Positions 40,191-58,632 of a DNA stretch of 64,000 nucleotides are shown piece by piece. The position numbers and the translations under genes are program-made. Numbering within the stretch: position 1 is the stretch's first letter; each line of letters starts with the position of its first letter. Source of the DNA: Nostoc linckia FACHB-104. GTDB taxonomy: Bacteria > Cyanobacteriota > Cyanobacteriia > Cyanobacteriales > Nostocaceae. The notes below the pieces were generated by a model. It was not told the DNA's origin. It ran no database searches and worked only from the letters and a program-made list of their open reading frames with translations. The stretch is taken from contig NZ_JACJQJ010000046.1 in the NCBI RefSeq assembly GCF_014696615.1, positions 1 to 64,000 of the forward strand, given 5' to 3'.

Positions 40191-40265
40191 AATGCCCAAT
40201 GCCTCTTGTATGTAGGATTTTAGATTTTAGCTGTGGAAGTAAATGCTGATGGCAATTTTAGATAT

Positions 40266-40526
40266 TTAATAATTGATTTCTGCCGTACAAGATTGTTCTA
40301 ACCAATCAAGTAATTCTTGCCGAGTCGCCAAAGAATGCTTGGCACTATTGCGAACCATAAGAGCTGCGATCGCATGATTAAACCCCACCATTACAGAATG
40401 ATCTGCTGGCGACCGACAGGGAATCATTAAATCTTGTAGGTGTTGATAAATCCGCCAGCGATCGCTAACAGGTATCTCGGAAATGTGTGTATTGAGTTTA
40501 CAAGTAGGAGGCTTAAACATAAGCAA
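40266..40526 (-). CDS. Asr1405/Asl0597 family protein
   Basis: An 86-residue protein of unknown function. It has VSDRWRIYQHLQDLMIPCRS and LATRQELLDWLEQSC, which match what I recall of the Asr1405/Asl0597 family. In Anabaena PCC 7120 the asr1405 gene lies near nifV1 (alr1407), so the synteny supports the call. It is 75 bases upstream of nifV on the same strand and may be co-transcribed. Confidence 0.8.
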   Translation of the reverse strand: MLMFKPPTCKLNTHISEIPVSDRWRIYQHLQDLMIPCRSPADHSVMVGFNHAIAALMVRNSAKHSLATRQELLDWLEQSCTAEINY

Positions 40527-41910
40527 AATGCCTGTAGAAAATTTCGATTCTTAATTATTTATGAGTCATGCTCAAAAATTTTAATTTATACCTATTCAAC
40601 AATCACTAATTAACTACTACACTTAAAAATCTATGTAGTATTGGCGAAAATTCTCGTTATTAAAGAAAACTGTACTCTTGTACAGACGCGATTAATCGCG
40701 TCTCTTTTGACTTCTAAGGCAGCGGTACTAGTCTATTTCTATCCTGCCCAGTTTATAAGAACTAGTTATACCAGGTGACTCTAACCATACCAGTGCATTC
40801 ATTAGCCTGTACTCAATTACTATCAATCCTGATTTCATCAGAATTTACAAGCAGAAAAAAAATTTTTTCCCCTAGGGTACTAGTATTTATCAAAGTCAAT
40901 AATCAGTACTTATTTATTTCAAAATGAAACCCCCATAAGGATTTGTCCGGATTTTGATTTTATTTGCTGAGATATAAATTTGTACTCATCTTAATGTTAG
41001 ATGAAAAGTATTGAACAATAATTGTCTGTATCTGAAGTTACGATTTCCTATGAATTGTTTTCCTGAAGCAGTTTGATGGGGCAAAAGCCTCAACGGGAGT
41101 AACCCCGTACATAATTAGCTCAACTTTGTGCTGATGTGCGCGAACACAAAATTTCCGCAAGTATGAAAACAGTGGTTCTGTATCTCATGACACGATTTTT
41201 GGTTAAGTTATTTTAAAATTAAATTTTTCCATGAGAAAAGTGTTATTTTGGATACGGAATTGAATTTCGCTTAACAACTGGGGCAGTGTTTGGTTAACTA
41301 CTCCAGTTATTTATCTCTCAAATACCCAAATAAATAGTGCTTTGGGTAGCGATAGAGCAATATTTGAGTACAGATAAAACACAACCAAAAAACACCTCAA
41401 ATTACACTCAAACTCTTGTTAGTGCTAGGTTCAAGGCGAGTACAGAAATACTTGAACCCCTTCATCATAAATACTCGTACCTAGTGCAGAAAATACTAGT
41501 ACCCATACCTAAAAACTTTTTTTAAAATTTTCGCAAAGCTTGGCAAGTATTAGTTTCACTTTTTGAGTACAAGCTTAATAAGTTTAATAAATTATAAAAA
41601 ACACTCACAACTTTCGCTTGTGAAGCTGCTGCTATAAATAAAACATGTAGCGCACAACACCCAAGGCACTAACAAAAATGTATCACTAAATACTGAATGC
41701 ACTAACCAAAACTCGACAGTTATAACTATCAAAAGTTGTAGCGAGAAGTGATTGAAGATGCGATATTAGCTGTTCCACATTAAATTTGCATATTTAATGA
41801 TGTGGATTTTTGACCGTTGACAGTTAACCGTTAACAGTCAACAAACTTGGCTGAGATTGAAAGCATCTTCCATAATGCCAGCCCCCAACTCTAATACGTA
41901 GCGAAATTCA
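40527..41910. other. 1.4-kb intergenic region upstream of nifB
   Basis: This divergent gap should hold the promoters of the asr1405-like/nifVZT side and of nifB. It contains a palindromic repeat (40677-40703), an exact GTA-N8-TAC at 41028-41041 without a well-placed -10 box, a GTTGACAGTTAACCG-type inverted pair (41813-41841), and several GTACC/GTACT clusters (41400-41515). A plus-strand frame at 41337-41525 shows no homology. nifB starts without a clear Shine-Dalgarno. Confidence 0.5.
40677..40703. repeat. Dispersed palindromic repeat, copy 2
   Basis: CTTGTACAGACGCGATTAAT... continuing to TCGCGTCT: a 20-base perfect palindrome with the same flank as copy 1 at 33778-33802, in inverted orientation. 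Confidence 0.75.
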
Positions 41911-43362
41911 ATGACACCACCTACAGGGCTTTTAACTTCTGCCACTACGGAGATAACAACTCAAGCCAAATCCGGCGGTTGTGGTTGCAGTAGCAAAACC
42001 GATACCACAACAAGTTTAGATGAAAAAATCCAGGCAAGGATTGCAAAACATCCTTGCTATAGCGAAGAAGCGCATCATCACTATGCGAGGATGCACGTTG
42101 CAGTAGCACCAGCTTGTAATATTCAATGCAACTATTGCAACCGCAAATATGACTGTGCAAACGAAAGTCGTCCTGGTGTTGTCAGCGAACTGCTCACACC
42201 AGAAGAAGCAGCGCATAAAGTTTTAGTGATTGCAGGCAAAATTCCCCAAATGACCGTTTTGGGAATTGCAGGCCCTGGAGATCCCCTCGCGAATCCAGAA
42301 AAAACTTTCCGCACCTTCGAGTTAATTGCCGAGAAAGCACCAGATATCAAGCTTTGCCTGTCAACTAACGGATTGATGCTTCCCGATTACGTGGATCGAA
42401 TAAAACAACTCAACATCGACCACGTCACCATAACTATTAATATGGTAGACCCCGAAATCGGAGCAAAGATTTATCCTTGGGTTCACTACAAACGCAAGCG
42501 CTATAGAGGGATTGAAGGTGTCCGCATTCTGCACGAAAAGCAGATGGAAGGATTACAAGCTCTGCAAGAAGCAGACATCCTTTGCAAAGTTAACTCGGTA
42601 ATGATTCCGGGAATTAACGACGAACATTTGGTAGAAGTCAACAAAGTCATTCGTTCCAAGGGCGCATTCCTCCACAATATTATGCCCCTGATTTCTGCCC
42701 CAGAACACGGCACTCACTTCGGTTTAACAGGTCAGCGTGGCCCCACATCTAAAGAATTGAAGGCAGTACAAGATAGCTGCTCTGGCAATATGAAGATGAT
42801 GCGCCACTGTCGCCAGTGTCGCGCCGATGCAGTGGGATTATTAGGTGAAGACCGCAGTCAAGAATTCACCAAAGAGAAATTCATGGAAATGGCTCCAGAA
42901 TATAATCTAGAGCAACGCCAAGAAGTCCATGCAGGTATCGAGAAATCGCAAAAAGAAATTCAAGCCGTCAAAGAAAAGGTAGTAGAGACATTACATACAA
43001 CATCTCTACAAGACAGACCAAAAATCTTAGTTGCAGTCGCTACCAAAGGCGGTGGTTTAGTTAACCAGCACTTCGGTCATGCTAAAGAGTTTATGATTTA
43101 CGAAGTCGATGGTAGCAGTGCTAAGTTTGTCGGTCATCGCAAGATTGACCATTATTGCCAAAGTGGATATGGCGAAGAAGCCACTTTAGACAACATTATT
43201 AATGCTATTTCCGATTGCAAAGCGGTTCTGGTGTCCAAAATAGGTCACTGTCCTCAAGAACAATTGCAGAAAGCTGGCTTACAGACCGTTGAAGCTTACG
43301 ACGTAATTGAAAAGGTTGCTTTGGAATTTTACGAGCAATGGATTTTAGGGAGTGGGGACTAG
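41911..43362 (+). CDS. nifB: Nitrogenase cofactor biosynthesis protein NifB
   Basis: NifB is the radical-SAM enzyme that makes the iron-sulfur core (NifB-co) of FeMo-cofactor. The 483-residue protein has a Cys-rich N-terminus (SGGCGCSS), the SAM cluster motif CNIQCNYC near residue 70, and from about residue 370 a NifX/NafY-like domain ([24 protein letters not shown]) that binds the product. The last residues LGSGD and the stop codon are encoded by the GGGAGTGGGGACTAG repeat, so the C-terminus was altered by repeat DNA. First gene of the main cluster. Confidence 0.96.
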
Positions 43363-43413
43363 GGAGTGGGGACTAGGGACTAGGGATTTGAGATGAGCAT
43401 TAAAAGAATTCTT

Positions 43414-43468
43414 ACCCAGTACCCAATACCCAATACCCAGTACCCAGTACCCAATCCCCAATACCCAA
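43414..43468. repeat. Tandem heptamer repeat between nifB and fdxN
   Basis: About seven units of ACCCA(G/A)T ending just before the AAGGAGG ribosome site of fdxN. The preceding GGGGACTAGGGAGT units at 43347-43386 are of related type. Confidence 0.9.
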
Positions 43469-43481
43469 AAGGAGGATAGTT

Positions 43482-43841
43482 ATGGGTTACAAGATTACCA
43501 GCCAATGTATTTCCTGTGGACGCTGTCAATCTTCATGTCCCACTGGTGCAATCAAAATTTCCACAGATGGTCACTACTGGATTGACTCTAGCCTTTGTAC
43601 AAACTGTTCTGGTGTTTATGCTGTAGCACAATGCGCTGCTGATTGTCCTAAACAAGATGTTTGCGTTCCCGCACCAACTGATTATTGGGAATGGTGGTTT
43701 GCTACTCACGATCGCCTAATAGGCAAGTTAACAGGAACATACCAAACAGATTACTGGGAACGCTGGTTTAATCTGTATTCTCAAAAACTTTCCGAGCAAT
43801 TATCTAAGCGCAAGCAAAAAGTGGTGAGTGTAGAAGCATGA
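43482..43841 (+). CDS. fdxN: Nif-linked 2[4Fe-4S] ferredoxin FdxN
   Basis: A 119-residue bacterial-type ferredoxin with cluster motifs CISCGRCQSSCPTGAI and CTNCSGVYAVAQCAADCPKQDVC, plus a Trp-rich C-terminal extension (DYWEWWFATHDRL...DYWERWF). It may carry electrons to NifB or nitrogenase. The gene is continuous, so the fdxN excision element known in Anabaena PCC 7120 is absent. A strong AAGGAGG lies seven bases before the ATG. Its stop overlaps the nifS start. Confidence 0.95.
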   Translation: MGYKITSQCISCGRCQSSCPTGAIKISTDGHYWIDSSLCTNCSGVYAVAQCAADCPKQDVCVPAPTDYWEWWFATHDRLIGKLTGTYQTDYWERWFNLYSQKLSEQLSKRKQKVVSVEA

Positions 43842-45034
43842 GTGTGATTTATTTAGATAACAATGCCACGACTAAGGTAGATGAGCAAGTTATACAGGCG
43901 ATGCTGCCCTACCTCACCGAGTTTTACGGTAATCCTTCTTCGATGCACAGCTTTGGCGGACAGGTAGGGAAAGCAGTTAGGGAAGCTAGGGCGCAAGTTG
44001 CATCCCTTTTAGGAGCCGAAGATTCCGAAATTATCTTCACCAGTTGCGGTACTGAAGGCAATAACGCAGCCATCAAAGCAGCTTTAGCAGCACAACCTGA
44101 AAAACGCCATATTATTACCACTCAGGTAGAACACGCAGCAATACTCAATGTCTGCAAACAACTAGAAAAACAAGGCTATACAGTTACCTACTTATCTGTA
44201 GATGATCAGGGACAAATCGACTTGATGGAACTAGAAGCCGCCCTCACTGGCAATACTGCTTTAGTTTCCACCATGTATGCCAACAATGAAACCGGCGTGA
44301 TTTTCCCCATCGAGCAGATTGGTTTACGGGCGAAAGATGCAGGTGCTATCTTCCATGTAGATGCAGTCCAGGCGGTAGGTAAAGTTCCCCTCAACCTCAA
44401 GACTAGCAGCATTGATATGCTCACCCTCTCCGGTCACAAACTCCATGCTCCCAAAGGGATGGGTGCATTGTATGTTAGACGCGGTGTGAGGTTCCGTCCC
44501 CTGTTAATTGGTGGACACCAAGAACGAGGACGCAGAGCAGGTACAGAGAACGTTCCCGGTATTATTGCTTTAGGCAAAGCTGCGGAATTAGCGCAAGTAC
44601 ATTTAAAAGATATACAACGGGAAAAAGCATTACGCGATCGCTTAGAAAAAGGTTTACTGGCTGCGATCGCTGACACTCAAGTTAATGGTCATCCCACTTC
44701 CAGATTACCCAACACCACCAATATCGGTTTCAAGTACATCGAAGGCGAAGCAATTTTATTATCCCTCAACCAATACGGCATCTGTGCATCTTCTGGTTCC
44801 GCTTGTACTTCTGGTTCTTTAGAACCCTCCCATGTTTTACGGGCAATGGGCTTACCATACACCATTCTGCACGGTTCGATTCGCTTCAGTCTTTCACGCT
44901 ACACCACTGAAGCCGAGATAGATAAAGTCCTTGAAGTCATGCCTCCAATTGTCGAACGCCTACGGGCTATCTCTCCATTCAACAACGACCAAGCTGATTG
45001 GCTGCAAGAAAGGTCAATGGTCATTAGTCATTAG
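43838..45034 (+). CDS. nifS: Cysteine desulfurase NifS
   Basis: NifS releases sulfur from cysteine for nitrogenase Fe-S clusters. The 398-residue PLP enzyme has the cofactor Lys in LSGHKLHAPKGMGAL (about 200-215), HVDAVQAVGK, and the catalytic Cys in SSGSACTSGSLEPSHVL. It starts inside the fdxN stop (ATGA), so the two are translationally coupled. Repeats of AAAGGAC follow its stop (45050-45078). Confidence 0.96.
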   Translation: MSVIYLDNNATTKVDEQVIQAMLPYLTEFYGNPSSMHSFGGQVGKAVREARAQVASLLGAEDSEIIFTSCGTEGNNAAIKAALAAQPEKRHIITTQVEHAAILNVCKQLEKQGYTVTYLSVDDQGQIDLMELEAALTGNTALVSTMYANNETGVIFPIEQIGLRAKDAGAIFHVDAVQAVGKVPLNLKTSSIDMLTLSGHKLHAPKGMGALYVRRGVRFRPLLIGGHQERGRRAGTENVPGIIALGKAAELAQVHLKDIQREKALRDRLEKGLLAAIADTQVNGHPTSRLPNTTNIGFKYIEGEAILLSLNQYGICASSGSACTSGSLEPSHVLRAMGLPYTILHGSIRFSLSRYTTEAEIDKVLEVMPPIVERLRAISPFNNDQADWLQERSMVISH

Positions 45035-45084
45035 TCATTGGTAAATGACAAATAACAAAGGACAAAGGACAAAGGACTAAATAA

Positions 45085-46011
45085 ATGTGGGAATATACGG
45101 ATAAGGTATTAGAACTTTTTTACAATCCCAAAAACCAAGGTGCAATAGAAAATAGTAACGAAGCAGGTGTAGCGGTGGTTTTTGGAGAGGTGGGCAGTAT
45201 TGCTTGCGGAGACGCTCTGAGACTGCATCTCAAGGTTGAAGTAGACAGCGATAAAATTCTTGATGCTCGGTTTCAGACTTTTGGTTGCACCAGTGCGATC
45301 GCATCTTCTTCGGCTTTGACTGAGTTAATTAAAGGTCTAACCTTAGATGAAGCTTTGAAAGTCACCAATAAAGAGATTGCCGAATATCTAGGCGGATTAC
45401 CAGAAGCCAAGATGCACTGTTCGGTGATGGGGCAAGAAGCTTTAGAAGCAGCGATTTTCAAATACCGAGGAATTCCGGTAGTTGCTCATGACGATGATGA
45501 AGGCGCATTGATTTGTAGTTGCTTTGGGATCAGCGAATCCAAGGTTCGCCGGGTGATTCAAGAAAACAGCCTCACTACTGCCGAACAAGTAACAAGCTAT
45601 ATCAAAGCGGGTGGCGGCTGCGGTTCTTGTCTAGCAAATATCGATGACCTAATCTCTGCGGTGCAAAAAGAATCAGCTATTGGTACTAGCTATAAATTAA
45701 GTACAAAAATTGCTGCAACTACCCAAGAACAATCCGCACGACCACTAACAACTGTCCAAAAAATCGCCTTGATTCAAAAGGTTCTAGACGAAGAAGTTAG
45801 ACCACTACTGATTGCCGATGGCGGAGATATTGAACTGTACGATGTGGATGGAGACCGGGTGCAAGTGATGCTACAGGGTGCTTGTGGTTCCTGCCCCAGT
45901 AGCACTGCAACCCTCAAAGTAGCAGTTGAAGCCAAATTACAAGAGCGTGTGAGCCAAAACCTACGAGTAGAAGCCGTTGACCCCATATTCAGCATCAGTA
46001 AGGGTCGTTAA
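45085..46011 (+). CDS. nifU: Fe-S cluster scaffold NifU
   Basis: NifU receives sulfur from NifS and assembles clusters for nitrogenase. The 308-residue protein has all three modules: an IscU-like N-terminus with its three Cys (GSIACGDAL, FGCTSAI, MHCSVM), a central BFD-type [2Fe-2S] domain (LICSCFGISE...GGGCGSC), and a C-terminal Nfu domain with CGSC (GACGSCPSSTATLK). It follows nifS by 50 bases. The gap to nifH has three ACCAATT units (46021-46045). Confidence 0.96.
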   Translation: MWEYTDKVLELFYNPKNQGAIENSNEAGVAVVFGEVGSIACGDALRLHLKVEVDSDKILDARFQTFGCTSAIASSSALTELIKGLTLDEALKVTNKEIAEYLGGLPEAKMHCSVMGQEALEAAIFKYRGIPVVAHDDDEGALICSCFGISESKVRRVIQENSLTTAEQVTSYIKAGGGCGSCLANIDDLISAVQKESAIGTSYKLSTKIAATTQEQSARPLTTVQKIALIQKVLDEEVRPLLIADGGDIELYDVDGDRVQVMLQGACGSCPSSTATLKVAVEAKLQERVSQNLRVEAVDPIFSISKGR

Positions 46012-47099
<1,088 letters not shown>

Positions 47100-47247
47100 G
47101 CTTACTCGTCAGCTAATTGTGGGCTGGGGTTAGCGAAAGAAGTAAATGGGTTGATGATTTAGACCCGTAAAGAACCCACTTTCTTACTTTTACTCCCTAC
47201 TCCCTATTCCCAAACTCTGCGATCGCAAGTAGTCAAGAGGATAAACT

Positions 47248-48744
47248 ATGACACCCTCCGAAGCCGCAATTTTAGAGCAAACCACTGCTACTGAAGCAGC
47301 ATCAGAAATTGATAAAAAAGCCTTGCTTCAGGAAGTTCTGGAAGCATATCCTGACAAAGCCAAGAAAAAACGGGAAAAGCACCTGAACGTTTACGAAGCA
47401 GGCAAGTCCGATTGTGGTGTTAAGTCCAACATCAAATCTGTTCCTGGTACAATGACCACCCGTGGTTGCGCCTATGCAGGCTCCAAAGGTGTGGTCTGGG
47501 GGCCAATCAAAGATATGATCCACATCAGTCACGGCCCTGTTGGTTGCGGTTATTACTCCTGGTCTGGTCGTCGTAACTACTACATTGGTACCACTGGCAT
47601 TGACAGCTTTGGCACGATGCAGTTTACCTCCGATTTCCAAGAACGGGACATCGTATTTGGTGGCGACAAAAAACTTGCCAAGCTCATCGATGAAATTGAA
47701 GAATTATTCCCCCTGAATCGTGGGATTTCCATTCAATCAGAATGCCCCATCGGTCTAATTGGGGATGACATCGAAGCTGTTGCTAAGAAGAAAGCAAAAG
47801 ATACTGGCAAGACTGTTGTTCCCGTGCGTTGCGAAGGCTTCCGGGGTGTGTCTCAGTCCCTCGGACACCACATTGCGAACGATACCATTCGTGACTGGGT
47901 ATTCCCTAAAGCTGACAAAGCCAAGAAAGAAGGCACTCTCGGATTTGAGCCTAGCCCCTATGATGTGGCAATCATTGGTGACTACAACATCGGTGGTGAT
48001 GCTTGGTCTAGCCGTATCCTGTTAGAAGAAATCGGCTTGCGCGTTGTGGCTCAGTGGTCTGGAGACGGTACTCTACATGAAATGATGCTCACCCCCAGCG
48101 TAAAACTGAACCTAGTTCACTGCTACCGCTCCATGAACTACATCTCCCGTCACATGGAAGAAGCTTATGGTATTCCCTGGTTAGAATATAACTTCTTCGG
48201 CCCCACCAAAATTGCTGAGTCCCTGCGGGAAATTGCCTCCAAGTTTGATGAAACCATTCAGGCAAAAGCAGAAGAAGTCATCGCTAAATACGAAGCGCAA
48301 ACCAAAGCAGTACTCGATAAATATCGCTCTCGCTTAGAAGGAAAAACAGTTGCTCTCATGGTGGGTGGTTTACGTCCCCGTCACGTTGTTCCAGCCTTTG
48401 AAGACCTCGGCATGAAGCTAGTCGGTACAGGCTACGAATTCGGTCACAACGATGACTATAAACGTACTACTCACTATGTTGAGAATGGCACATTAATTTA
48501 CGATGACGTGTCTGCATACGAGTTTGAGCAATTCGTTAAAGCACTCCAGCCTGACTTAATCGCCTCTGGTATTAAAGAGAAGTACGTATTCCAGAAAATG
48601 GCACTTCCTTTCCGCCAAATGCACTCGTGGGATTATTCCGGGCCATACCACGGCTACGACGGATTTGCAATTTTTGCCCGTGACATGGATCTTGCCCTCA
48701 ACAGCCCCACTTGGAGCTTAATCGGCGCTCCTTGGAAAAAGTAA
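47248..48744 (+). CDS. nifD: Nitrogenase MoFe protein alpha chain NifD
   Basis: NifD carries FeMo-cofactor. The 498-residue chain has P-cluster Cys residues ([28 protein letters not shown]), the cofactor Cys in [10 protein letters not shown], the nearby [11 protein letters not shown] histidine, and the cofactor His in [12 protein letters not shown]. The gene is uninterrupted: the sequence GGATTATTCCG at 48630-48640 corresponds to the 11-base core used by the nifD element of Anabaena, with one difference. The gap before nifK holds CTCTGC-type repeats (48746-48797). Confidence 0.98.
48630..48640 (+). other. Core-like site of the nifD excision element (unoccupied)
   Basis: GGATTATTCCG inside nifD differs by one base from GGATTACTCCG, the direct-repeat core of the 11-kb nifD element in Anabaena PCC 7120 (from memory). 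It lies at the codons for WDYSG. Here the gene is continuous, so the site is empty. Confidence 0.5.
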
Positions 48745-48825
48745 TACAGCCTCTTCCTCTGCCTCCTCTGCACCCTCTGCTCCTCTGCTTCCCCACTCCC
48801 TACCTCCCAAACTTGGAGAATACTG

Positions 48826-50364
48826 ATGGCTCAACACGATGTAAACAAGATTAAGGATCACGCCGAACTTTTCCAACAGCAGGAATACCAAGAGCTATTT
48901 CAAGCCAAAAAAGAGTTTGAATGTGGACATGAATCTGAAGAAGTTACCCGGATTGCTGAGTGGACAAAGACCTGGGAATATCGCGAAAAGAACTTTGCCC
49001 GTCAAGCTTTAACTGTTAACCCTGCGAAAGCTTGCCAACCTCTGGGATCAATTTTGGCAGCCGTTGGTTTTGAAGGCACACTACCTTTTGTACATGGTTC
49101 TCAAGGCTGCGTTGCATATTTCCGCAGTCACTTGACCCGCCACTTCAAAGAACCGTTTTCTGCCGTATCCTCCTCCATGACGGAAGATGCAGCCGTATTC
49201 GGTGGTCTGAAGAACCTGATTGAAGGTTTAGCAGTTTCCTACAACTTATATAAGCCCAAAATGATTGCTGTCTGCACTACCTGTATGGCAGAAGTAATTG
49301 GGGATGACTTGCAAGCCTTTATTAGAACTGCTAAGGAAGAAGGTGCTGTTCCTGAAGACTTCCCTGTTCCCTATGCTCACACTCCCAGCTTTGTTGGTTC
49401 CCACATTTTGGGTTACGACAACATGATGAAGGGGATTCTGTCAAATTTGACAGCCGGTAAGAAGAAAGAAACCACCAACGGCAAAATCAACTTTATTCCT
49501 GGGTTTGAAACCTACATTGGCAACCTCCGCGAAATTAAGCGGATTGCTAATGTGATGGGAATTGACTATACCTTGTTAGCAGATAACTCAGAATACTTGG
49601 ATTCTCCGAATAATGGTACATATAATATGTATCCTGGTGGAACCAAGCTAGAAGATGCAGCTGATTCTATCAATGCTGAAGCGACGATCGCACTCCAAGC
49701 TTACGCCACCACTAAAACTCGTGAGTACATCGAACACGAATGGCATCAAAAGACCTACGTTAACCGTCCCGTCGGCATTCGTGGTACTGATGAATTCTTG
49801 ATGAAACTGTCGGCGTTAACCGGTAAGCCCATTCCCCAAGAATTAGAAGATGAACGGGGACGCGCAGTGGATGCGTTGACCGATTCTCAAGCATGGTTGC
49901 ACGGTAAGCGGGTGGCAATGTATGGCGATCCCGATTTAGTGATTGGTTTGACTCAATTCCTATTAGAAGTAGGTGCAGAACCAGTCCACATCCTGGTCAG
50001 CAACAGCAACGAACATTTTGAGGCAGAACTACGCGCCTTACTCGACTCTAGCCCCTTTGGTCAAGGTGCGACAATTCACGGTGGACGCGACCTCTGGCAT
50101 ATGCGTTCCTTACTATTTACAGAACCCGTAGACCTGCTCATCGGTAACTCCTACGGTAAGTACCTCTGGCGCGACACCAAAACCCCATTTGTGCGGATTG
50201 GCTACCCCATTTTTGACCGCCATCACCTGCACCGCTACGCCACCTACGGCTACCAAGGCACAATCAACCTACTCAACTGGATTGTCAACACACTTCTGGA
50301 TGAGTTGGATCGCAACACCATCATTCCATCTAAGACCGATATTTCCTATGACTTGATTCGGTAA
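48826..50364 (+). CDS. nifK: Nitrogenase MoFe protein beta chain NifK
   Basis: NifK pairs with NifD and shares the P-cluster. The 512-residue chain has the ligands in NPAKACQPLGS, VHGSQGCVAYF and CTTCMAEVIGDD, and FVGSHILGYDNMMKG. It has normal length. It follows nifD by 81 bases, largely repeat sequence. Confidence 0.98.
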   Translation: MAQHDVNKIKDHAELFQQQEYQELFQAKKEFECGHESEEVTRIAEWTKTWEYREKNFARQALTVNPAKACQPLGSILAAVGFEGTLPFVHGSQGCVAYFRSHLTRHFKEPFSAVSSSMTEDAAVFGGLKNLIEGLAVSYNLYKPKMIAVCTTCMAEVIGDDLQAFIRTAKEEGAVPEDFPVPYAHTPSFVGSHILGYDNMMKGILSNLTAGKKKETTNGKINFIPGFETYIGNLREIKRIANVMGIDYTLLADNSEYLDSPNNGTYNMYPGGTKLEDAADSINAEATIALQAYATTKTREYIEHEWHQKTYVNRPVGIRGTDEFLMKLSALTGKPIPQELEDERGRAVDALTDSQAWLHGKRVAMYGDPDLVIGLTQFLLEVGAEPVHILVSNSNEHFEAELRALLDSSPFGQGATIHGGRDLWHMRSLLFTEPVDLLIGNSYGKYLWRDTKTPFVRIGYPIFDRHHLHRYATYGYQGTINLLNWIVNTLLDELDRNTIIPSKTDISYDLIR

Positions 50365-50462
50365 TTAATGGGCATAGGGCATAGGGCATGGGGCATTGGG
50401 CATTTCTCCCCTGCATCCTCTGCCCCCTCTGCTTCCTCTGCTGTCCTTATAAATTGCCCGCT

Positions 50463-50750
50463 ATGAGTACTATCATCCACAGCCGCGATCGCTTCGATAT
50501 TCTCTTTCCCTTACGCCAATGGGTGAATCAAATTCAAGTATGCGATCGCAATACCGCCCATCTCATTTGCCAAGTTATTCCCTGTTGTTGTCCTTTTGAA
50601 CGCAACGTTAAATTTTTCGGACACACTTTTCATATTCCCCCACTCTGCAAATTAAATCCCCTCTACGACGAATTTGTAGCTTTACGCTTCCGCAGCCTCT
50701 CCTACCTCGCAGATGAGTGTGCTGAAGATATAACCAAATACATTTGCTAG
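50463..50750 (+). CDS. Mo-dependent nitrogenase C-terminal family protein
   Basis: A 95-residue protein of the Mo-nitro_C family (PF06967 type), with SRDRFDILFPLRQWVNQIQV, IPCCCPFERNVKFFGHTFHIPPLCKLNPLYDEFVALRFRSLSYLADECAEDI. Its function is unknown; it commonly lies between nifK and nifE in heterocystous strains. The start is ATG at 50463; an upstream frame would translate repeat DNA (50405-50440, CCTCTGC type). Confidence 0.88.
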   Translation: MSTIIHSRDRFDILFPLRQWVNQIQVCDRNTAHLICQVIPCCCPFERNVKFFGHTFHIPPLCKLNPLYDEFVALRFRSLSYLADECAEDITKYIC

Positions 50751-50854
50751 TTATTTATTCTCCACACCCCTTTGCATTAAAAAATTTCAATTCCTCCTCT
50801 CTGCGCCTCTGCGTCTCTGCGTGAACCAAATTCTTATCACCAACTGCTAAACTC

Positions 50855-53554
50855 ATGAAAATCACCCAAGGCAAAATTAACGAGCTGCTGAGTGAGCCAG
50901 GATGCGAACACAATCACCACAAGCATGGGCAGAAGAAAAATAAATCTTGTCACCAACAAGCCCAACCCGGTGCGGCTCAAGGAGGTTGTGCCTTTGACGG
51001 AGCATCAATCGCCCTAGTCCCCATTACCGATGTTGCTCATTTAGTCCACGGGCCTATCGCTTGTTCTGGTAACTCTTGGGGTGGTCGTAGTAGTCTTTCC
51101 TCTGGTTCTCATCTCTACAAAATGGGTTTTACAACCGACCTCAATGAGAACGATATTATTTTCGGTGGGGAAAAAAAGCTGTATAAGGCAATTTTGGAAG
51201 TACAGCAACGCTATCAACCCGCAGCAGTTTTTGTTTACTCCACTTGTGTGACGGCGCTGATTGGCGATGATTTAGACGCAGTTTGTGAAGCCGCAGCCAA
51301 GAAAACAGGTACACCTGTAATCCCGGTAAATTCACCTGGTTTTATTGGTAGTAAAAACCTTGGTAATCGTGTCGGTGGGGAAGCCTTACTAGAATACGTT
51401 ATCGGTAGTGCTGAACCAGAATATACAACCCCTTATGATATTAATCTCATTGGTGAGTACAACATTGCAGGCGAATTGTGGGGAGTTCTGCCTTTATTTG
51501 AAAAATTAGGGATTCGAGTTTTAGCAAAAATCACGGGTGATGCTAAGTACAAAGAAGTTCAGTATGCTCACCGTGCCAAACTAAACGTCATGATCTGCTC
51601 CAAAGCCTTGATCAACGTGGCGAGAAAGATGGAAGAACGCTATGGCATTCCCTACATTGAAGAATCTTTCTATGGCGTGGATGACATGAATCGCTGTTTG
51701 CGGAATATTGCTGCTAAAATCGGCGATCAAGCTTTGCAAGAGAGAGTAGAGAAATTAATCGCACAAGAAACTGCTGCGCTAGATATTGCCTTAGCGCCCT
51801 ATCGCGATCGCCTCAAAGGTAAGCGGGTTGTTCTTTATACCGGGGGTGTGAAAAGTTGGTCAATCATCTCGGCGGCGAAAGACTTGGGAATGGAAGTTGT
51901 CGCCACTAGTACCAAGAAAAGTACTGAGGAAGATAAAGCGAGGATCAAAGAATTACTAGGAAAAGATGGCATTGCTATGGAAAAAGGCAACGCCCAAGAA
52001 CTGCTACGGGTGATTGCCCAGACAAAAGCCGATATGCTGATTGCTGGTGGTCGCAATCAATACACTGCCCTCAAAGCCCGCATTCCATTTTTAGATATTA
52101 ATCAAGAACGGCATCATCCCTACGCCGGATATGTAGGCATGGTGGAGATGGCGCGAGAACTGGATGAAGCGCTTTACAGTCCAGTCTGGGCGCAGGTGCG
52201 GAAGCCGGCATTGTGGGAGGAGACAGCAGAGGGAGCAGAGGAAGCAGGGGAGCAGAGGGGGAAAACTGTAATCCAAAATTCTGCAAAGTCGGTTGCAGTC
52301 AATCCTTTAAAGCAAAGTCAACCTTTAGGTGCAGCCTTAGCATTTTTAGGATTGAAGGGCGTAATGCCTTTGTTTCACGGTTCTCAGGGTTGTACTGCCT
52401 TCGCCAAAGTCATGTTAGTGCGGCATTTTCGGGAAGCCATTCCCCTATCCACCACTGCCATGACTGAAGTTACCACTATCTTGGGTGGCGAAGACAATAT
52501 TGAGCAAGCAATCCTGACGCTGGTAGAAAAATCAAAGCCAGAAATCATTGGTCTGTTAACTACTGGACTTACGGAAACCAGAGGGGATGATATGGAAGGC
52601 ATCCTCAGAAGTATCCGCAAACGCCACCCAGAATTATATGATTTGCCGATTGTATTTGCTTCTACACCTGATTTTAAAGGTGCATTGCAGGATGGTTTTG
52701 CTACAGCAGTCGAAAGCATAGTTAAAGAAATTCCCCAACCAGGAGAAACCAGGCTAGACCAAATCAATATTTTGGCAAGTTCTGCATTTACAGCTGGGGA
52801 TGTACAGGAAATTAAAGAGATTGTTGCAGCCTTTGGGCTAAAAGCCATTGTTGTACCTGACCTTTCCGCTTCACTTGACGGTCACTTGGATGATTCTTAC
52901 AGTGCAGTGACAGGTGGCGGGACAACTTTGGCAGAACTCCGACAAATGGGTAGTTCGGTGTTTACCTTAGCACTAGGCGAGAGTGTGCGCGGTGCAGCCG
53001 AGAGTTTGCAACAACGATTTAGCATACCTTACGAGGTATTTCCCCAACTGACTGGGCTAGATGCAGTAGATAACTTCTTGCAAGGACTGGTTGATATCAG
53101 CGGGAATACAGTCCCAGCCAAATACCGCCACCAACGCCGCCAGTTGCAAGATGCGATGCTGGATACTCACTTTTACTTCGGGCGTAAGCGGGTGTCGTTA
53201 GCCCTAGAACCGGATTTACTGTGGTCAACAGTTTGGTTTTTGCAATCAATGGGTGCAGAAATTCAAACCGCAGTCACAACCACAAAGTCGCCGCTGTTAG
53301 AGCAACTCCCTGTAGAGAGTGTCACTATTGGTGATTTGGAGGATTTTGAGCGATTAGCAGTAGGTTCTGACCTGCTGATTACTAATTCTCATGGTAAAGC
53401 GATCGCTCGTCGTCTACACACTTCTTTCTATCGTCTTGGGTTCCCGATTTTTGACCGCTTGGGTAACGGACAGCGTTGTACTGTCGGCTACCGAGGAACC
53501 ATGCAATTGTTGTTTGATATCGGCAACTTATTTTTAGAAGCAGAAGAACATTAG
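50855..53554 (+). CDS. nifEN: Fused FeMo-cofactor scaffold NifE-NifN
   Basis: NifE and NifN form the scaffold where NifB-co matures before transfer to NifDK. Here both are one 899-residue protein. Residues 1-454 are NifE (HHKHG-rich start, [29 protein letters not shown], end VRKPALW). Residues 455-470 ([16 protein letters not shown]) are a linker encoded by 52217-52261, which is the AGAGGAAGCAGGGGAGC-type intergenic repeat. Residues 471-899 are NifN ([31 protein letters not shown]). No start codon with a ribosome site lies near the junction, so a separate NifN is unlikely. Confidence 0.93.
52217..52261 (+). repeat. Intergenic-type repeat forming the nifE-nifN linker
   Basis: The AG-rich sequence is the reverse complement in kind of the CCTCTGCTTCCTCTGC repeats between nifD and nifK (48746-48797) and before the Mo-nitro_C gene (50405-50440). 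It stays in frame and has no stop. Confidence 0.8.
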
Positions 53555-53607
53555 TTGACTGTTGACCGTTGACTGTTGACTGTGGATTTATAGTTGGAGG
53601 ACAAATT

Positions 53608-54012
53608 ATGAAAATTGCTTTTACAACTAGCGACCAAATTCATATTAATGCTCATTTTGGTTGGGCGAAAAAAATTGATGTCTATGAAGTTTCACCAGAG
53701 GGGTATCAGTTTCTCAATACTCTGAAATTTGATGGCGACCTCAAAGAAGATGGTAATGAGGATAAATTAGTTCCCAAAATTGAAGCTTTAGCTGATTGCA
53801 CAATTGTTTATGTATCAGCAATTGGCGGCAGTGCGGCGGCTCGGTTAATTAAGAACCGCATTACACCAATTAAAGCTAGGTCTGAAGATGACAAAATTAC
53901 TGACCTTCTGGATCAGTTAGTCCAGACTTTGAAAAGCAGTCCTCCACCTTGGTTGCGGAAAGCTTTACAACAAAAATCATCAAATTTTGCAGAAGAGGAA
54001 GTAGGTGTATGA
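53608..54012 (+). CDS. nifX: Cofactor carrier NifX
   Basis: NifX binds NifB-co or precursor clusters and passes them to NifEN. The 134-residue protein has KIAFTTSDQIHINAHFGWAKKIDVYEV and TIVYVSAIGGSAAARLI, the same fold as the NifB C-terminal domain. GGAGG eight bases before ATG 53608 fixes the start; an upstream frame is repeat sequence GTTGACT. Its stop overlaps the next start. Confidence 0.92.
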   Translation: MKIAFTTSDQIHINAHFGWAKKIDVYEVSPEGYQFLNTLKFDGDLKEDGNEDKLVPKIEALADCTIVYVSAIGGSAAARLIKNRITPIKARSEDDKITDLLDQLVQTLKSSPPPWLRKALQQKSSNFAEEEVGV

Positions 54013-54485
54013 GTTCAACTGAAATTGTTAATCAAACCGTTAGTAACGAAGCTTTAAATTCTCTCTTTGTCCAAGAGTTAGTTAGACAAATTCGCGCTCA
54101 AGATTCTTATGGATTTTATCGCAATTGGTCAGATGAATTAATTCTTAAACCTTATATTGTTAGCAAGCAAGCTAAACGCCAAATTTCTGTAGAGGGTGAT
54201 GTTGAACCCGCTACCAAAGCCAGAATTATGTCATTCTATCGCGCGATCACCGCCCAAATTGAGCAGAAAACTGGTTCGTTATCCCAAGTGGTTCTCGATT
54301 TGAGTCATGAAGGTTTTGGCTGGGTGTTGGTTTTTTCTGGTCGTTTGTTGCTAGTATCTAGAACCTTACGCGATGCTCAACGTTTCGGCTTTGATTCTCT
54401 AGAAAAGTTAGCATCCGAGGGCGAGAAACTCACACAAAAAGGCATTGAATTAGCAGAAAAATACACTGAAGTCACCAAAATATAG
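54009..54485 (+). CDS. NifX-associated nitrogen fixation protein (DUF269)
   Basis: A 158-residue member of the NifX-associated family (PF03270 type). The core is LVRQIRAQDSYGFYRNWSDELILKPYI, followed by LSHEGFGWVLVFSGRLLLVSRTLRDAQRFGF. Its exact role is unknown, but it is nearly always beside nifX. The start ATG at 54009 overlaps the nifX stop. Confidence 0.9.
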   Translation: MSSTEIVNQTVSNEALNSLFVQELVRQIRAQDSYGFYRNWSDELILKPYIVSKQAKRQISVEGDVEPATKARIMSFYRAITAQIEQKTGSLSQVVLDLSHEGFGWVLVFSGRLLLVSRTLRDAQRFGFDSLEKLASEGEKLTQKGIELAEKYTEVTKI

Positions 54486-54515
54486 GTAATAAGCAGGCAA
54501 GAAACGGAGAAACTT

Positions 54516-54752
54516 ATGGTGCCATCAGCAGAAACAGATTGTGTAAATCAACAAGCTATTGAAGACTTAAAACTACAAATTAAAAAGCTGAATAGTAAAG
54601 CTGGTCAATTGAAGATGGATCTTCATGATTTAGCTGAAGGCTTGCCAACTGATTACCAAAATTTAACAGCTTTAGCAGCCGAAACTTACGAAATTTACCG
54701 TCATTTAGATGAACTGAAATCTCAGCTTAAAAATTTGGAGAAAAAATCATGA
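54516..54752 (+). CDS. CCE_0567 family metalloprotein
   Basis: A 78-residue, mainly helical protein (LKLQIKKLNSKAGQLKMDLHDLAEGLPTD and YEIYRHLDELKSQLKNLEKK) of the Rop-like CCE_0567 family. It is found in nif clusters; a structure of the Cyanothece homologue suggests a metal-binding helical hairpin. The stop overlaps the nifW start (ATGA). Confidence 0.85.
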   Translation: MVPSAETDCVNQQAIEDLKLQIKKLNSKAGQLKMDLHDLAEGLPTDYQNLTALAAETYEIYRHLDELKSQLKNLEKKS

Positions 54753-55066
54753 CATGGGACGTTGAACAATTCAATCAACTTGTAAATGCAGAAGAATACT
54801 TCGAGTTTTTTCAACTTCCTTATGAGCCTAAAGTTGTCCAAGTTAACCGTCTACATATTTTGAAGCGTTTTTCTCAATCTATTCAAGAGATTGATGCTCA
54901 TAATTCAGAACTAAGCCAAGCTGAGAAACTCGATTTATACTGTACAGCACTTAAACAAGCTTACGAAGTTTTCCTCAGTTCTACACCTCTAGAACAAAAA
55001 CTGTTCAAGGTGTTTAAGCACAAGCCTAACAATATCGTCATGCTGACAGAAATTGCAACCAGCTAG
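54749..55066 (+). CDS. nifW: Nitrogenase stabilising protein NifW
   Basis: NifW helps stabilise or protect the MoFe protein. The 105-residue protein begins MTWDVEQFNQLVNAEEYFEFFQLPYEPKVV and ends FKVFKHKPNNIVMLTEI, with normal length. It overlaps the gene before and is followed 12 bases later by hesA. Confidence 0.93.
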   Translation: MTWDVEQFNQLVNAEEYFEFFQLPYEPKVVQVNRLHILKRFSQSIQEIDAHNSELSQAEKLDLYCTALKQAYEVFLSSTPLEQKLFKVFKHKPNNIVMLTEIATS

Positions 55067-55078
55067 GAGAAATCAACA

Positions 55079-55882
55079 GTGGTAAACCTCTCGCCTAATG
55101 AATTAGAACGTTACCGTCGCCAAATCATGCTCCCAGGTTTTGGCAAAGAAGCACAGCAGCGACTTAAATCTGCAACAGTAGTGGTTACAGGTGTGGGAGG
55201 ATTAGGCGGTACAGCAGCACTTTACCTGGCGGTAGCGGGTGTAGGAAAGCTGATTCTAGTTCGAGGCGGTGAGTTGCGGCTAGATGACATGAATCGCCAA
55301 ATTCTCATGAGTGACGATTGGGTAGGTAAGCCGCGCGTGTTTAAAGCCAAAGAACGGCTAGAGGATATCAACCCAGATGTGGAAGTCGAAGCCATATTTG
55401 ATTACGTTACGCCGGATAATGTCGATTCCTTAGTTCAATCTGCCGATGTTACGCTTGACTGCGCCCACAATTTTGTGGAACGCGATTTATTGAATGCAGC
55501 TTGCGTGCGTTGGCGTAAGCCGATGGTAGAAGCGGCGATGGATGGAATGGAGGCTTACCTGACGACAATTGTTCCTGGCGTGACACCTTGTTTATCTTGC
55601 CTATTTCCCGAAAAACCAGAATGGGATCGGCGCGGCTTTGGCGTGCTGGGTGCAGTTTCTGGAACCCTTGCCTGTTTAACAGCACTAGAAGCAATTAAGT
55701 TGATTACTGGATTTAGCCAGCCACTGTTATCGCAACTATTAACAATGGATTTACACCAGATGGCATTTGCCAAGCGTCGTTCCTACCGCGATCGCAATTG
55801 TCCAGTTTGCGGTACTCATTCTCTCCATTATCCTCACCCCCTACAGCTGAGTCACTTTGCCTTAGCCAGTGCTGAGTTCTGA
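55079..55882 (+). CDS. hesA: HesA, ThiF/MoeB-like protein
   Basis: HesA belongs to the E1-like adenylating family and is linked to nitrogen fixation in heterocystous strains; it is thought to help molybdenum or sulfur supply. The 267-residue protein has the nucleotide loop VVVTGVGGLGGTAALYLA, DDMNRQILM, and two CxxC pairs (CLSC, CPVC) for zinc. The start is GTG at 55079. It is followed by GAGTTCT and CCCCAGTCCCCAATC repeats (55877-55965). Confidence 0.93.
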   Translation: MVNLSPNELERYRRQIMLPGFGKEAQQRLKSATVVVTGVGGLGGTAALYLAVAGVGKLILVRGGELRLDDMNRQILMSDDWVGKPRVFKAKERLEDINPDVEVEAIFDYVTPDNVDSLVQSADVTLDCAHNFVERDLLNAACVRWRKPMVEAAMDGMEAYLTTIVPGVTPCLSCLFPEKPEWDRRGFGVLGAVSGTLACLTALEAIKLITGFSQPLLSQLLTMDLHQMAFAKRRSYRDRNCPVCGTHSLHYPHPLQLSHFALASAEF

Positions 55883-55968
55883 GTTCTGAGTTCTGAGTAA
55901 TAATTTCTTCCTCTGCTCCCCAATCCCCAGTCCCCAATCCCCAGTCCCCAATCCCCAGTCCCCAAATT

Positions 55969-56340
55969 ATGACTCTCACATTAACAGAAGCAGCAGAATT
56001 CCGTCTGCGTACCTTTCTTTTAGCCTCAAATAAAGATGAAAATGCTACTCAACGCGGTATCCGTGTTGCTGTTGAGGATGGCGGTTGTAGTGGTTATCAA
56101 TATGCCATCAAAGTTATCAACGCTCCCCAAGCCGATGACATAGTGATGCAGCAAGGTAAGTTACGCATCTACGTTGATTCAAAAAGTGCGCCATTACTAG
56201 AAGGCGTTGTGGTTGATTTTGTCGATGGCTTACTAGAAAGCGGATTTAAGTTTAGCAATCCCAACGCTACTGATACCTGTGGTTGTGGGAAATCATTCCA
56301 AGCAGGTAATTGTTCTCCTGCTGGCGTACCTTGTAGCTGA
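55969..56340 (+). CDS. hesB: HesB, IscA-like Fe-S carrier
   Basis: HesB (nif IscA) is an A-type carrier that delivers Fe-S clusters to nitrogenase proteins. The 123-residue protein has the Cys pair motif GGCSGYQY and the C-terminal CGCGKSF, the expected cluster ligands. It lies between hesA and fdxH as in other heterocystous strains. Confidence 0.95.
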   Translation: MTLTLTEAAEFRLRTFLLASNKDENATQRGIRVAVEDGGCSGYQYAIKVINAPQADDIVMQQGKLRIYVDSKSAPLLEGVVVDFVDGLLESGFKFSNPNATDTCGCGKSFQAGNCSPAGVPCS

Positions 56341-56376
56341 TTACTGAAACCTTTATTTATTTTGGAGGATATGACA

Positions 56377-56676
56377 ATGACAACTTTTCAAGTGAGATTG
56401 ATCAATAAAAAGCGATCGCTCGACATTAGCATTCCTGTTGATGAAAATACCACAATTCTAGATGCTGCTGAAGCACAAGACTTAGAGTTACCCTTTTCCT
56501 GTCGCTCTGGTTCTTGCTCTAGTTGCGTCGCCAAAGTAGTTGAAGGTGAAGTCGATCAATCGGAACAGGTATTTCTCGATGATGAGCAGATGGCGAAAGG
56601 ATTTATTGTCCTCTGTGTTACCTACCCCCGTTCTGACTGCACGATTCGCACTCACCAAGAACCTTATTTAGTCTGA
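56377..56676 (+). CDS. fdxH: Heterocyst [2Fe-2S] ferredoxin FdxH
   Basis: FdxH is the plant-type ferredoxin that donates electrons to nitrogenase in heterocysts. The 99-residue protein has CRSGSCSSC and a later CVTYPRSDC, so all four cluster Cys are present. ATG 56377 is used because GGAGG lies eight bases upstream, giving the normal length; ATG 56371 is too close to it. Confidence 0.95.
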
Positions 56677-56786
56677 GTTATGAGTGCTGAGTTCTGAGTT
56701 ATTAGTTGTTCCCTTTTTACCCTTTCCCTTTCACCTTTTCCCCAATCCTCAATCCCCAATCCCTAATAATTCGGGAAAATTACACT

Positions 56787-57083
56787 ATGGCAATACTTAC
56801 TGGTTTAACCTTTGGGGGACAAGCCTGGACACCCCAATTTGTTCAAGATATTAACCAAGACAAATGCATTGGCTGTGGTAGATGTTTTAAAGCTTGTGGT
56901 CGGAATGTGCTAATCCTGCAAGCATTAAATGAAGATGGTGAGTTAGTAGAAGATGAGGAGAATGAAGAAATCGAGCGTAAAGTTATGTCGATCATTCATC
57001 CTGAATATTGTATTGGCTGTCAAGCTTGTGCTAGGACTTGTCCAAAAAATTGTTACACCCACAGTCCACTTGAACAAAATTAA
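56787..57083 (+). CDS. fdxB: Nif-specific ferredoxin III FdxB
   Basis: A 98-residue ferredoxin with two four-Cys motifs, [15 protein letters not shown] and [15 protein letters not shown], separated by an acidic insert ([15 protein letters not shown]). It matches nif-specific ferredoxin III. ATG 56787 is chosen because the frame upstream is repeat DNA. It is the last gene of the rightward nif cluster. Confidence 0.9.
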
Positions 57084-57306
57084 TATAGTTTTATTTGGCA
57101 GCTTGACAAGCACAAAATTACCAAGAGGATGTGTAAATTAAGTTTTCTGCAAAGTGTTTTAGCCAATTCAGTGAGGTGCTTTTCTGACTGAATAAATTGC
57201 AGAAATTAGCTCATCCAATTTCTAGAACCTAGAGAAGGTCAGATTCTTCCTCCTCTATTTCTTCTTCCCACTCTGCTTATGCAGCAATAGGATGATTTAT
57301 TTCTTG

Positions 57307-58632
57307 CTAGCTCCTTTGCAAGTTAACAGGTTTTACTTCTGTAAAAGCTTCTCTCCCTGTAATTAATCGAGAACGACGATTTCGAGTAATATAATTCCAC
57401 GCCCATTGGAATACTACTAGTAATTTAGTATCAAACTCGATTAAGAAGTAGATATGAACTAATAGCCAAAATACCCAAGCTAGGAAACCTTGGAGTTTGA
57501 TCAAGCCTAAATCTACAACAGCTAAATTTTGCCCAATCATCGCCAAACTACCTACATCGTTGTAATGGAATTGTGGCAAAGTCTGACCTTTCAGCCGTCT
57601 TTTAATGAGTTTCGCTACATATTCTCCTTGTTGTTTAGCTACAGGTGCAACACCAGGTAAGGGTTTACCATCTTGATGGGAAAAGTTGGCTAAATCTCCA
57701 ACTACAAAAATGTTTTTATAATCTCTGACAGTCAAGTCGGGTTCTACAATCACACGTCCGGCGTGATCGCACTCTACATCTGTACGTTCTGCTAGGATTT
57801 GACCCATTGGGGAACCTTTGACACCCGCTGCCCATAAGACAGTTTGTGAGGGAATTTCTTTTACTTCACCTGCTTGCTTGAAAGTAACGATGTTATTTTC
57901 AATATTTATCACCCTGGTTTTAGTGTGAATAACTACACCTAATTTTGCCAAAGATTGCTCTGCTACTTGGGATAACGTTGGCGCAATGTGTGGCAGGATG
58001 CGATCGCCTCCTTGCAATAGTAAAATTTTGGTTTCTGAGGTGTCGATGCTGCGGAAATCTTCTTTGAGGGTTTTGTATGCTAACTCCGCGATCGCACCTG
58101 CTAATTCTACTCCTGTAGGGCCACCACCCACAATCACAAAAGTCAACCAAGCACGGCGTTTTTCGGGATTGGTTTCTCTTTCGGCTGCTTCAAATGCACC
58201 AAATATGCGGCGACGCATTTCTATTGCATCTTCCACAGTTTTTAAACCAGGAGCAAAGTCTTTCCAGTTATCTTTACCAAAATAGGAATGATTAGCACCT
58301 GTGGCGACAATTAATGTGTCATATTTTACTGCTTTATCGCCCATCATTACTTTTTGTGCTTTGGGATCAATATCGCTGACTTCTCCCAACAAAACTTGTG
58401 TATTCTTGCTTTTGCTAAATACGGCTCGCAATGGCGAGGAAATGTCACCAGGTGATAGCGTACCTGTAGCAACTTGATATAAAAGTGGCTGAAATAGGTG
58501 AAAGTTACGTTTATCAATGAGAGTAACATTTACATTAGCTTTAGCTAGATGTTTTGCTGTATAAAGTCCACCAAAGCCACCACCAACAATTACTACTTGA
58601 TGTTGTGCTTTTTTATCAACTGAAATTACCAT
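57307..58632 (-). CDS. Type II NADH dehydrogenase (FAD-dependent oxidoreductase)
   Basis: A 441-residue NDH-2-like flavoprotein that transfers electrons from NADH to the quinone pool without pumping protons. It has the FAD motif VVIVGGGFGGLYTAK, the NADH motif FVIVGGGPTGVELAG, FVVGDLANF, and a C-terminal hydrophobic segment (WVFWLLVHIYFLIEF) for membrane binding. The ATG at 58632 is preferred to that at 58683, whose extra 17 residues show no homology. It is convergent with fdxB. Confidence 0.88.
   Translation of the reverse strand: MVISVDKKAQHQVVIVGGGFGGLYTAKHLAKANVNVTLIDKRNFHLFQPLLYQVATGTLSPGDISSPLRAVFSKSKNTQVLLGEVSDIDPKAQKVMMGDKAVKYDTLIVATGANHSYFGKDNWKDFAPGLKTVEDAIEMRRRIFGAFEAAERETNPEKRRAWLTFVIVGGGPTGVELAGAIAELAYKTLKEDFRSIDTSETKILLLQGGDRILPHIAPTLSQVAEQSLAKLGVVIHTKTRVINIENNIVTFKQAGEVKEIPSQTVLWAAGVKGSPMGQILAERTDVECDHAGRVIVEPDLTVRDYKNIFVVGDLANFSHQDGKPLPGVAPVAKQQGEYVAKLIKRRLKGQTLPQFHYNDVGSLAMIGQNLAVVDLGLIKLQGFLAWVFWLLVHIYFLIEFDTKLLVVFQWAWNYITRNRRSRLITGREAFTEVKPVNLQRS

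Follow-up and report, generated by a model that had tools for sequence, protein, structure and literature searches.

The nifEN gene of Nostoc linckia FACHB-104 raises the question of how two genes came to be read as a single open frame, and what kind of DNA joins them. NifE and NifN hold a NifB-derived precursor while it matures to FeMo-cofactor. Relatives are already known to carry this fusion; in the window, the two halves are linked by repeat DNA of the kind dispersed through the same genome. Most gene fusions come to light long after they arose, whereas here fused and unfused versions stand side by side in one clade. The passage from overlapping stop and start codons to a fusion can thus be followed base by base, and the repeat DNA at the joint still has recognisable copies elsewhere. 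The following features were identified in the window (the whole 64,000-nucleotide stretch analysed, positions 1 to 64,000 of contig NZ_JACJQJ010000046.1).

46206..47099, plus strand: nifH (TIGR01287 above cut-off)
47248..48744, plus strand: nifD without interrupting element (TIGR01282 above cut-off; single frame of 498 residues)
48755..48792, minus strand: copy of the AG-rich repeat in the nifD-nifK gap (pattern matches, TRF)
48826..50364, plus strand: nifK (TIGR01286 above cut-off)
50407..50447, minus strand: copy of the AG-rich repeat between nifK and the Mo-nitro_C gene (pattern matches, TRF)
50463..50750, plus strand: Mo-dependent nitrogenase C-terminus (Mo-nitro_C) gene (PF06967, 134.2 bits)
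50855..53554, plus strand: nifEN, fused NifE-NifN scaffold protein of 899 residues (open frame; NCBIfam NF011047)
50855..52222, plus strand: NifE half, through residue E456 (TIGR01283; alignment with 3pdi chain A reaching residue 458)
52225..52265, plus strand: AG-rich 9-bp tandem repeat, the repeat part of the linker, coding for approximately T457-T471 (genome copies, pattern counts, TRF, pLDDT)
52266..52283, plus strand: second linker part (AACTGTAATCCAAAATTC), equivalent of a longer AAAATCC-type repeat in relatives (junction comparison, pattern count)
52284..53554, plus strand: NifN half, without a start codon of its own before the conserved core (TIGR01285, start-codon scan)
53608..54012, plus strand: nifX (TIGR02663 above cut-off)

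The fused gene and its cluster

As the initial annotation had proposed, nifE and nifN form one frame: translation of 50855-53554 gives 899 codons without a stop. The product scores 1496 bits with the NCBIfam model of bifunctional NifEN (NF011047, cut-off 1229; residues 7-898 on profile positions 2-909 of 917), 740.7 bits with the NifE model TIGR01283 (cut-off 505.1; best stretch residues 5-454) and 674.8 bits with the NifN model TIGR01285 (cut-off 326.8; best stretch residues 472-894). In a comparison of 25 fused proteins (one a fragment), cysteines C45, C70 and C131 are nearly invariant and C513 is invariant; by alignment, the first three pair with cysteines of 3pdi chain A and the last with a cysteine of 9i0g. 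These four residues are presumably the ligands of the permanent [4Fe-4S] clusters.

The gene order with a fused nifEN and the nifD gene without an excision element are those of a nif2-type molybdenum cluster. A vanadium-type VnfEN was not found here, the VNFD and vnfK models staying below their cut-offs and the neighbours scoring as nifH, nifD and nifK. A fused NifEN in a molybdenum context had been regarded as unusual at the outset, a view that is not supported: the fusion has been published for the nif2 cluster of Anabaena variabilis and for Chroococcidiopsis thermalis (PMC8510180, PMC4284476), it is present in 33 of the 108 non-redundant rows compared below (the other 75 having separate genes, in a set drawn by similarity to the window that does not give a frequency), and a structure has been solved. 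A. variabilis has nif1 and nif2 clusters, of which nif2 contains the fused nifEN2 and only nifD1 contains an excision element (PMC8510180, PMC4284476); its nif2 cluster is expressed in anaerobic vegetative cells under CnfR2 (PMC8510180). Nine genomes with fused nifEN are named in PMC8071049, and PMC8399215 gives 29 assemblies of Cyanobacteria and Nitrospira in which nifE is fused to nifN. Anabaena (Trichormus) variabilis ATCC 29413 and Chroococcidiopsis thermalis PCC 7203 resemble the window in having the fused gene, a nif2-type cluster and an uninterrupted nifD. Their fusion was termed unusual and ascribed to a common ancestor; the excerpts of these accounts that deal with it (PMC8510180, PMC4284476) mention neither the make-up of the linker nor unfused relatives with a TAATG junction.

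A fused NifEN protein of known structure, GmNifEN (cryo-EM 9i0g, 9i0h), is likewise one chain, of 919 residues, with both NifE and NifN. It is the best structural and sequence match to the AlphaFold model of the window's NifEN, a single run that was used only for this PDB comparison and for linker disorder; however, 9i0g is 48% identical in the Foldseek alignment and has another linker.

The linker as dispersed host repeat DNA

Tandem Repeats Finder (TRF) reports a period of 9 for all three AG-rich arrays of the cluster, placing the linker array at 52225-52259. A search of the window's own genome with 52217-52284 found at least 42 other places, at least 41 of those at E < 1e-4, counts that are lower bounds since 40 of 181 first-look candidates were scored. 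All of these places lie within query bases 1-52 (52217-52268), most of them within bases 9-49 (52225-52265). With up to one mismatch allowed, the AG-rich 15-mer GCAGAGGRAGCAGRG occurs 227 times in the genome (99 forward, 128 reverse), compared to four times for its reversed control. With up to two mismatches it matches eight times in the window, where 0.21 matches are expected and none of 100 shuffles reaches eight; seven of the matches fall at 48757-48780 and 50409-50441 on the minus strand and at 52226-52249 on the plus strand, and the eighth, with two mismatches, is within nifK. Because the repeat has at least 42 other places in the genome and 227 pattern matches versus four for the control, the NifEN linker is genome-wide dispersed host repeat DNA. 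The pattern of the second linker part, CCAAAATCCAAAATC, has 43 matches in the same genome versus none for its control.

The repeat units contain no stop codons on the strand used. The repeat origin of a linker first described as 16 residues long is upheld, and its length is corrected to approximately 15 repeat residues (T457-T471), with 24 residues between the conserved W454 and S479. The complement of the repeat does fill other gaps of the cluster, in minus-strand copies between nifD and nifK and behind nifK; these copies, previously placed at 48746-48797 and 50405-50440, have TRF limits of 48755-48792 and 50407-50447. Short tandem repeats of one family or another, with periods of 7-9 by TRF, are found in many gaps of the nif2 cluster (window positions 40000-58000). 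Among the 20 best other copies of the AG-rich repeat, 15 are outside open reading frames and five inside, according to a crude caller. Two of these five are within proteins that have a Pfam match: one (L169, 2187-2718) codes for part of a GNAT acetyltransferase, and the other (L165, 678-2673) is coding close to the N-terminus of a protein of 664 residues that matches the beta-barrel domain DUF5777 marginally, just above cut-off.

By resemblance, the AG-rich repeat is taken here to be of the STRR type. Short tandem repeats of heterocystous cyanobacteria are also dispersed, 7-9 bp in length and mostly intergenic (GGGNATC heptamers, PMC4692102), whereas the copy in nifEN is coding and joins two proteins. 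The palindromic elements of Rickettsia are likewise dispersed repeats that lie in frame within genes (PMC10969869, PMC3733652), but they are approximately 150 bp long, palindromic and located inside single genes, unlike the short tandem repeats that join two genes in nifEN. Literature searches of titles and abstract openings, mainly of open-access papers, found no description of a repeat-derived NifEN linker.

Expression as a single chain

The AlphaFold model has a mean pLDDT of 72, falling below 50 at residues 457-467, and the hydrophilic linker is predicted to be disordered. An in-frame scan of codons 454-499 found no ATG, GTG or TTG; therefore, a single NifEN chain is expected from the sequence. 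It is quite improbable that NifN is also made separately from the continuous frame, whether from an internal start codon or through cleavage of the linker by a protease: GTG 448 and TTG 453 are in frame just upstream of the linker, and the linker is predicted to be disordered, but no start codon follows between codons 454 and 499, and the AG-rich stretch is downstream of codons 448 and 453, where it cannot serve them as a Shine-Dalgarno sequence. The possibility that a stop codon between two separate genes is hidden by faulty assembly or sequencing of the linker (the refuting case foreseen for 52217-52261) is scarcely credible. Tandem repeats are error-prone in draft assemblies, and the host assembly consists of 181 contigs, but assemblies of relatives also have the fusion, at an equivalent position and with different linkers, and nifEN2 of A. 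variabilis has been described as a fused gene. Sequencing error as the source of the fusion was rejected on the evidence of these relatives.

Fused and unfused relatives

Comparison with strains that have separate genes had been suggested as a check. A starting set of 157 NifE/NifN loci, after removal of 41 duplicates and of eight loci without one of the halves, left the 108 rows. In a quick LG+G4 tree without bootstrap, in which some forks are open, a clade of 11 rows with support of 100 contains nine fused genes with repeat-rich linkers and two unfused pairs. Five of the fused genes are of nif2 type (the window, G015, G211, NIES-22 (G012) and Tolypothrix FACHB-123) and the other four belong to family f18, which has a match in five of 19 genomes searched (four fused, one unfused). 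The unfused members are NIES-2107 (G013, locus L034) and Gloeocapsopsis crepidinum (L084). Because the fusion is common to other nif2 carriers and to Chroococcidiopsidaceae, it is, by this comparison, older than the strain of the window.

The tree nests both unfused rows within the fused clade. L084 stands beside L120 with support of 94 within a starred trio, the L084-L120 fork itself being unstarred, and L034 forms a trio with the window and L009 (support 98), in which the fork uniting the window and L009 to the exclusion of NIES-2107 has support of 90 and is not starred. The junction stretch of G233, of family f18, is identical to that of Gloeocapsopsis crepidinum.

Both unfused members read GAAGAGGAGGTCAACTAATGGCAACTGT at the junction (GAGGAGG-TCAAC-TAATGG, with 44 nucleotides between the conserved edges in both rows), in which TAATG is the nifE stop codon overlapping the nifN start codon, behind a Shine-Dalgarno-like GAGGAGG. 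The TAATG junction is probably ancestral, because several rows that fall outside the clade, including L092, L086 and L097, likewise have TAATGGC. The junctions of the 75 unfused rows comprise 25 overlaps, 20 stops directly before ATG and 30 gaps, counts that include L098, L116 and L124, in which the alignment fits a start other than the TAATG. None of the nine fused rows has TAATG, and in most of them the repeat starts at the Shine-Dalgarno region; judged from these alignments, the repeats occupy the place of the former TAATG junction. The window and G211 retain AACTGTA after the AG-rich repeat, perhaps left over from the start region of nifN, a suggestive likeness only.

The nine fused linkers span 72, 90, 78, 192, 90, 105, 87, 123 and 132 nucleotides from one conserved edge to the other. 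All nine lengths are multiples of three, and for the eight distinct lengths (range 72-192 nucleotides) the chance of keeping the frame under random length change is (1/3)^7 = 0.0005. The linkers are varying mixtures of AG-rich 8/9-mers, AAAATCC and TTACCAA 7-mers, and GGGACAAGG 9-mers; no repeat-free linker was found among the nine fused rows of this clade, which span two families. The window and G211 share the stretch GGGGGAAAACTGTA(A/G)TCCAAAATTC, and L009, L035 and L081 share TCCAAAATCTAAAATCCAAAATTC. The AG pattern has 6-65 matches in the genomes of eight of the nine fused hosts (control 0 or 1) and one match in G298; the AAAATCC pattern occurs 9-49 times in six of the nine, twice in G298, once in G211 and not at all in G281. 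Because pattern matches are few or absent there, parts of the linkers in G298, G281 and G211 are weakly supported as living repeats. The unfused NIES-2107 genome carries both repeats (AG, eight matches; AAAATCC, 24). The linker site of this nitrogenase-assembly protein tolerates very different linkers, which bears on the engineering of single-chain NifEN.

Fused NifEN of Trichodesmium and Okeania (NifE half 80-81% and NifN half 64-66% identical to the window) and the named Pseudanabaena rows (83-86% and 70-71%, respectively) differ in being on other branches of the tree and having linkers that are non-repetitive by eye. The linker of fused L053 (Leptolyngbyaceae MO_188.B28) looks like the AG-rich repeat, but its host has two exact matches, which may include the linker itself, and recurrence is not claimed. 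Open frames longer than 900 residues were considered as further fusions, a reading rejected because the six fetched (L141-L146) were all separate genes. Among 251 plasmid records searched for further nif2 fusions, the best match was a Pseudanabaena plasmid gene (77%).

Probable recombination at the junction of NIES-2107

Both gene halves place NIES-2107 with the window and G015, yet the sequence next to its junction is mosaic. It differs from the window at two of 75 positions just upstream and at 10 of 33 positions next to the junction (Fisher p = 0.0001, for a 75/33 split picked after looking at the data), and from the other four fused nif2 rows at 4-10 of 75 and then 11-12 of 33. Compared to the f18 rows, the trend is reversed: 14 of 75 and then 3 of 33 with L120 (p = 0.26 alone, which is not significant), 14 of 75 and 6 of 33 with L118, and 15 of 75 and 6 of 33 with unfused L084. 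Because the junction looks like a short mosaic tract, the unfused state of NIES-2107 was probably regained by recombination. The strain's own nif1 set was considered as the donor of its nif2 junction and rejected, since the nif1 junction differs.

Origin of the fusion

Comparison of fused with unfused rows shows a junction replaced by repeat, and from it a course of events can be reconstructed that is considered probable: the one-chain NifEN of this nif2-type molybdenum cluster would have arisen in the ancestor of the clade through replacement of the TAATG junction by repeats. In that ancestor, nifE and nifN would have overlapped at TAATG behind GAGGAGG, with translation of nifN probably coupled to that of nifE. 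Host-type repeat DNA (AG-rich 8/9-mer plus AAAATCC 7-mer) would then have replaced the Shine-Dalgarno sequence, the stop and the start. Read in the direction in which they lie here, the units are free of stop codons, so the outcome would have been one open frame and a hydrophilic linker predicted to be disordered. Since then, the linker appears to have gained, lost and swapped repeats, with only frame-keeping changes of length being seen, and the fused chain presumably does the job of separate NifE and NifN as the scaffold for FeMo-cofactor. In NIES-2107, the unfused junction would have come back, probably through recombination with an unfused allele. The initial annotation had the repeat enter at or replace the nifE stop and nifN start with the frame kept; the position agrees with the TAATG of the two unfused clade members, and a simple origin, as it envisaged, is possible.

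A different order of events, in which a small deletion first removed the TAATG overlap to leave a short fused gene and repeats later colonised a tolerant linker, is possible though doubtful. It would account for the other cyanobacterial fused clades with linkers that look non-repetitive, for the arrival of repeats after fusion (for example, in NIES-22, described below) and for the repeats that lengthen nifE at its 3' end where nif1 genes are unfused. Against it, all nine fused rows, from two families, have AG-type repeats, AAAATCC-type repeats or both at the lost junction, and the clade offers no fused member free of repeats. It is unlikely that the same repeat families brought about separate fusions at one site on several occasions, with NIES-2107 and Gloeocapsopsis crepidinum unfused from the beginning. 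If fusion were irreversible, the tree would require several within the clade, and the TAATG junctions of the two unfused rows are almost identical; however, the linkers share more than repeat units, such as the stretches common to the window and G211 and to L009, L035 and L081, and the junction of NIES-2107 is a short mosaic tract. Replacement of the junction by repeat in the clade ancestor is preferred to either.

The junction as a possible landing site for repeats

NIES-22 has a 102-bp insert within the AAAATCC part of the linker, in frame, with 34 codons and no stop. The insert has 18 other matching places in its genome, mostly over bases 42-88, one of them near full length at 78% identity, and the insert-free site is seen in L081 and L009 (Tolypothrix FACHB-123 and G015 have the repeat without the insert). 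Thus, dispersed repeats enter the NifEN linker in frame.

In the Fischerella group, Hassallia and Chlorogloeopsis, where the nif1 genes are unfused, the 3' end of nifE contains GGGACA-type repeats ahead of the nifN start. The pattern has 489 matches in the Hassallia genome versus 13 for the control and 198 versus three in Chlorogloeopsis; within the Fischerella group, G070 has five versus one, G172 has 24 versus two and G173 has 26 versus none, and a search of G536 found none. These repeats in unfused nifE genes lend support, with less certainty, to the nifE-nifN junction being a tolerant landing site. In L115, L094 and L037, repeats lengthen the 3' end of an unfused nifE while the Shine-Dalgarno-like stretch of nifN and TAATG are intact. 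In the gap between nifE and nifN of L098 and L116 there appears to be an insert, and after it a second AGGAGGTAGTTTAATGG, a layout suggestive of a duplicated junction.

At somewhat less than even confidence, it is tentatively proposed that the cyanobacterial nifE-nifN junction is a recurrent landing site at which repeats may lengthen the NifE tail, separate the genes or, by replacing TAATG, fuse them. Fusion would then be reversible by recombination with unfused alleles, and therefore repeat turnover, rather than selection for a bifunctional enzyme, would drive fusion and fission.

The second nif set of the same genome, on contig C111, has separate nifE and nifN genes, of which nifE is in two pieces (L180, 60132-80131): residues 1-191 are encoded on the plus strand and residues 186-458 on the minus strand, approximately 11 kb apart. 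The pieces have a common 9-nucleotide core, GAACCTGAA, and a gene for a large serine recombinase adjoins the N-terminal piece. Because the pieces are on opposite strands, they point to an inversion or to an element more complex than one of simple excision. NIES-2107 also has a nifE split in this way.
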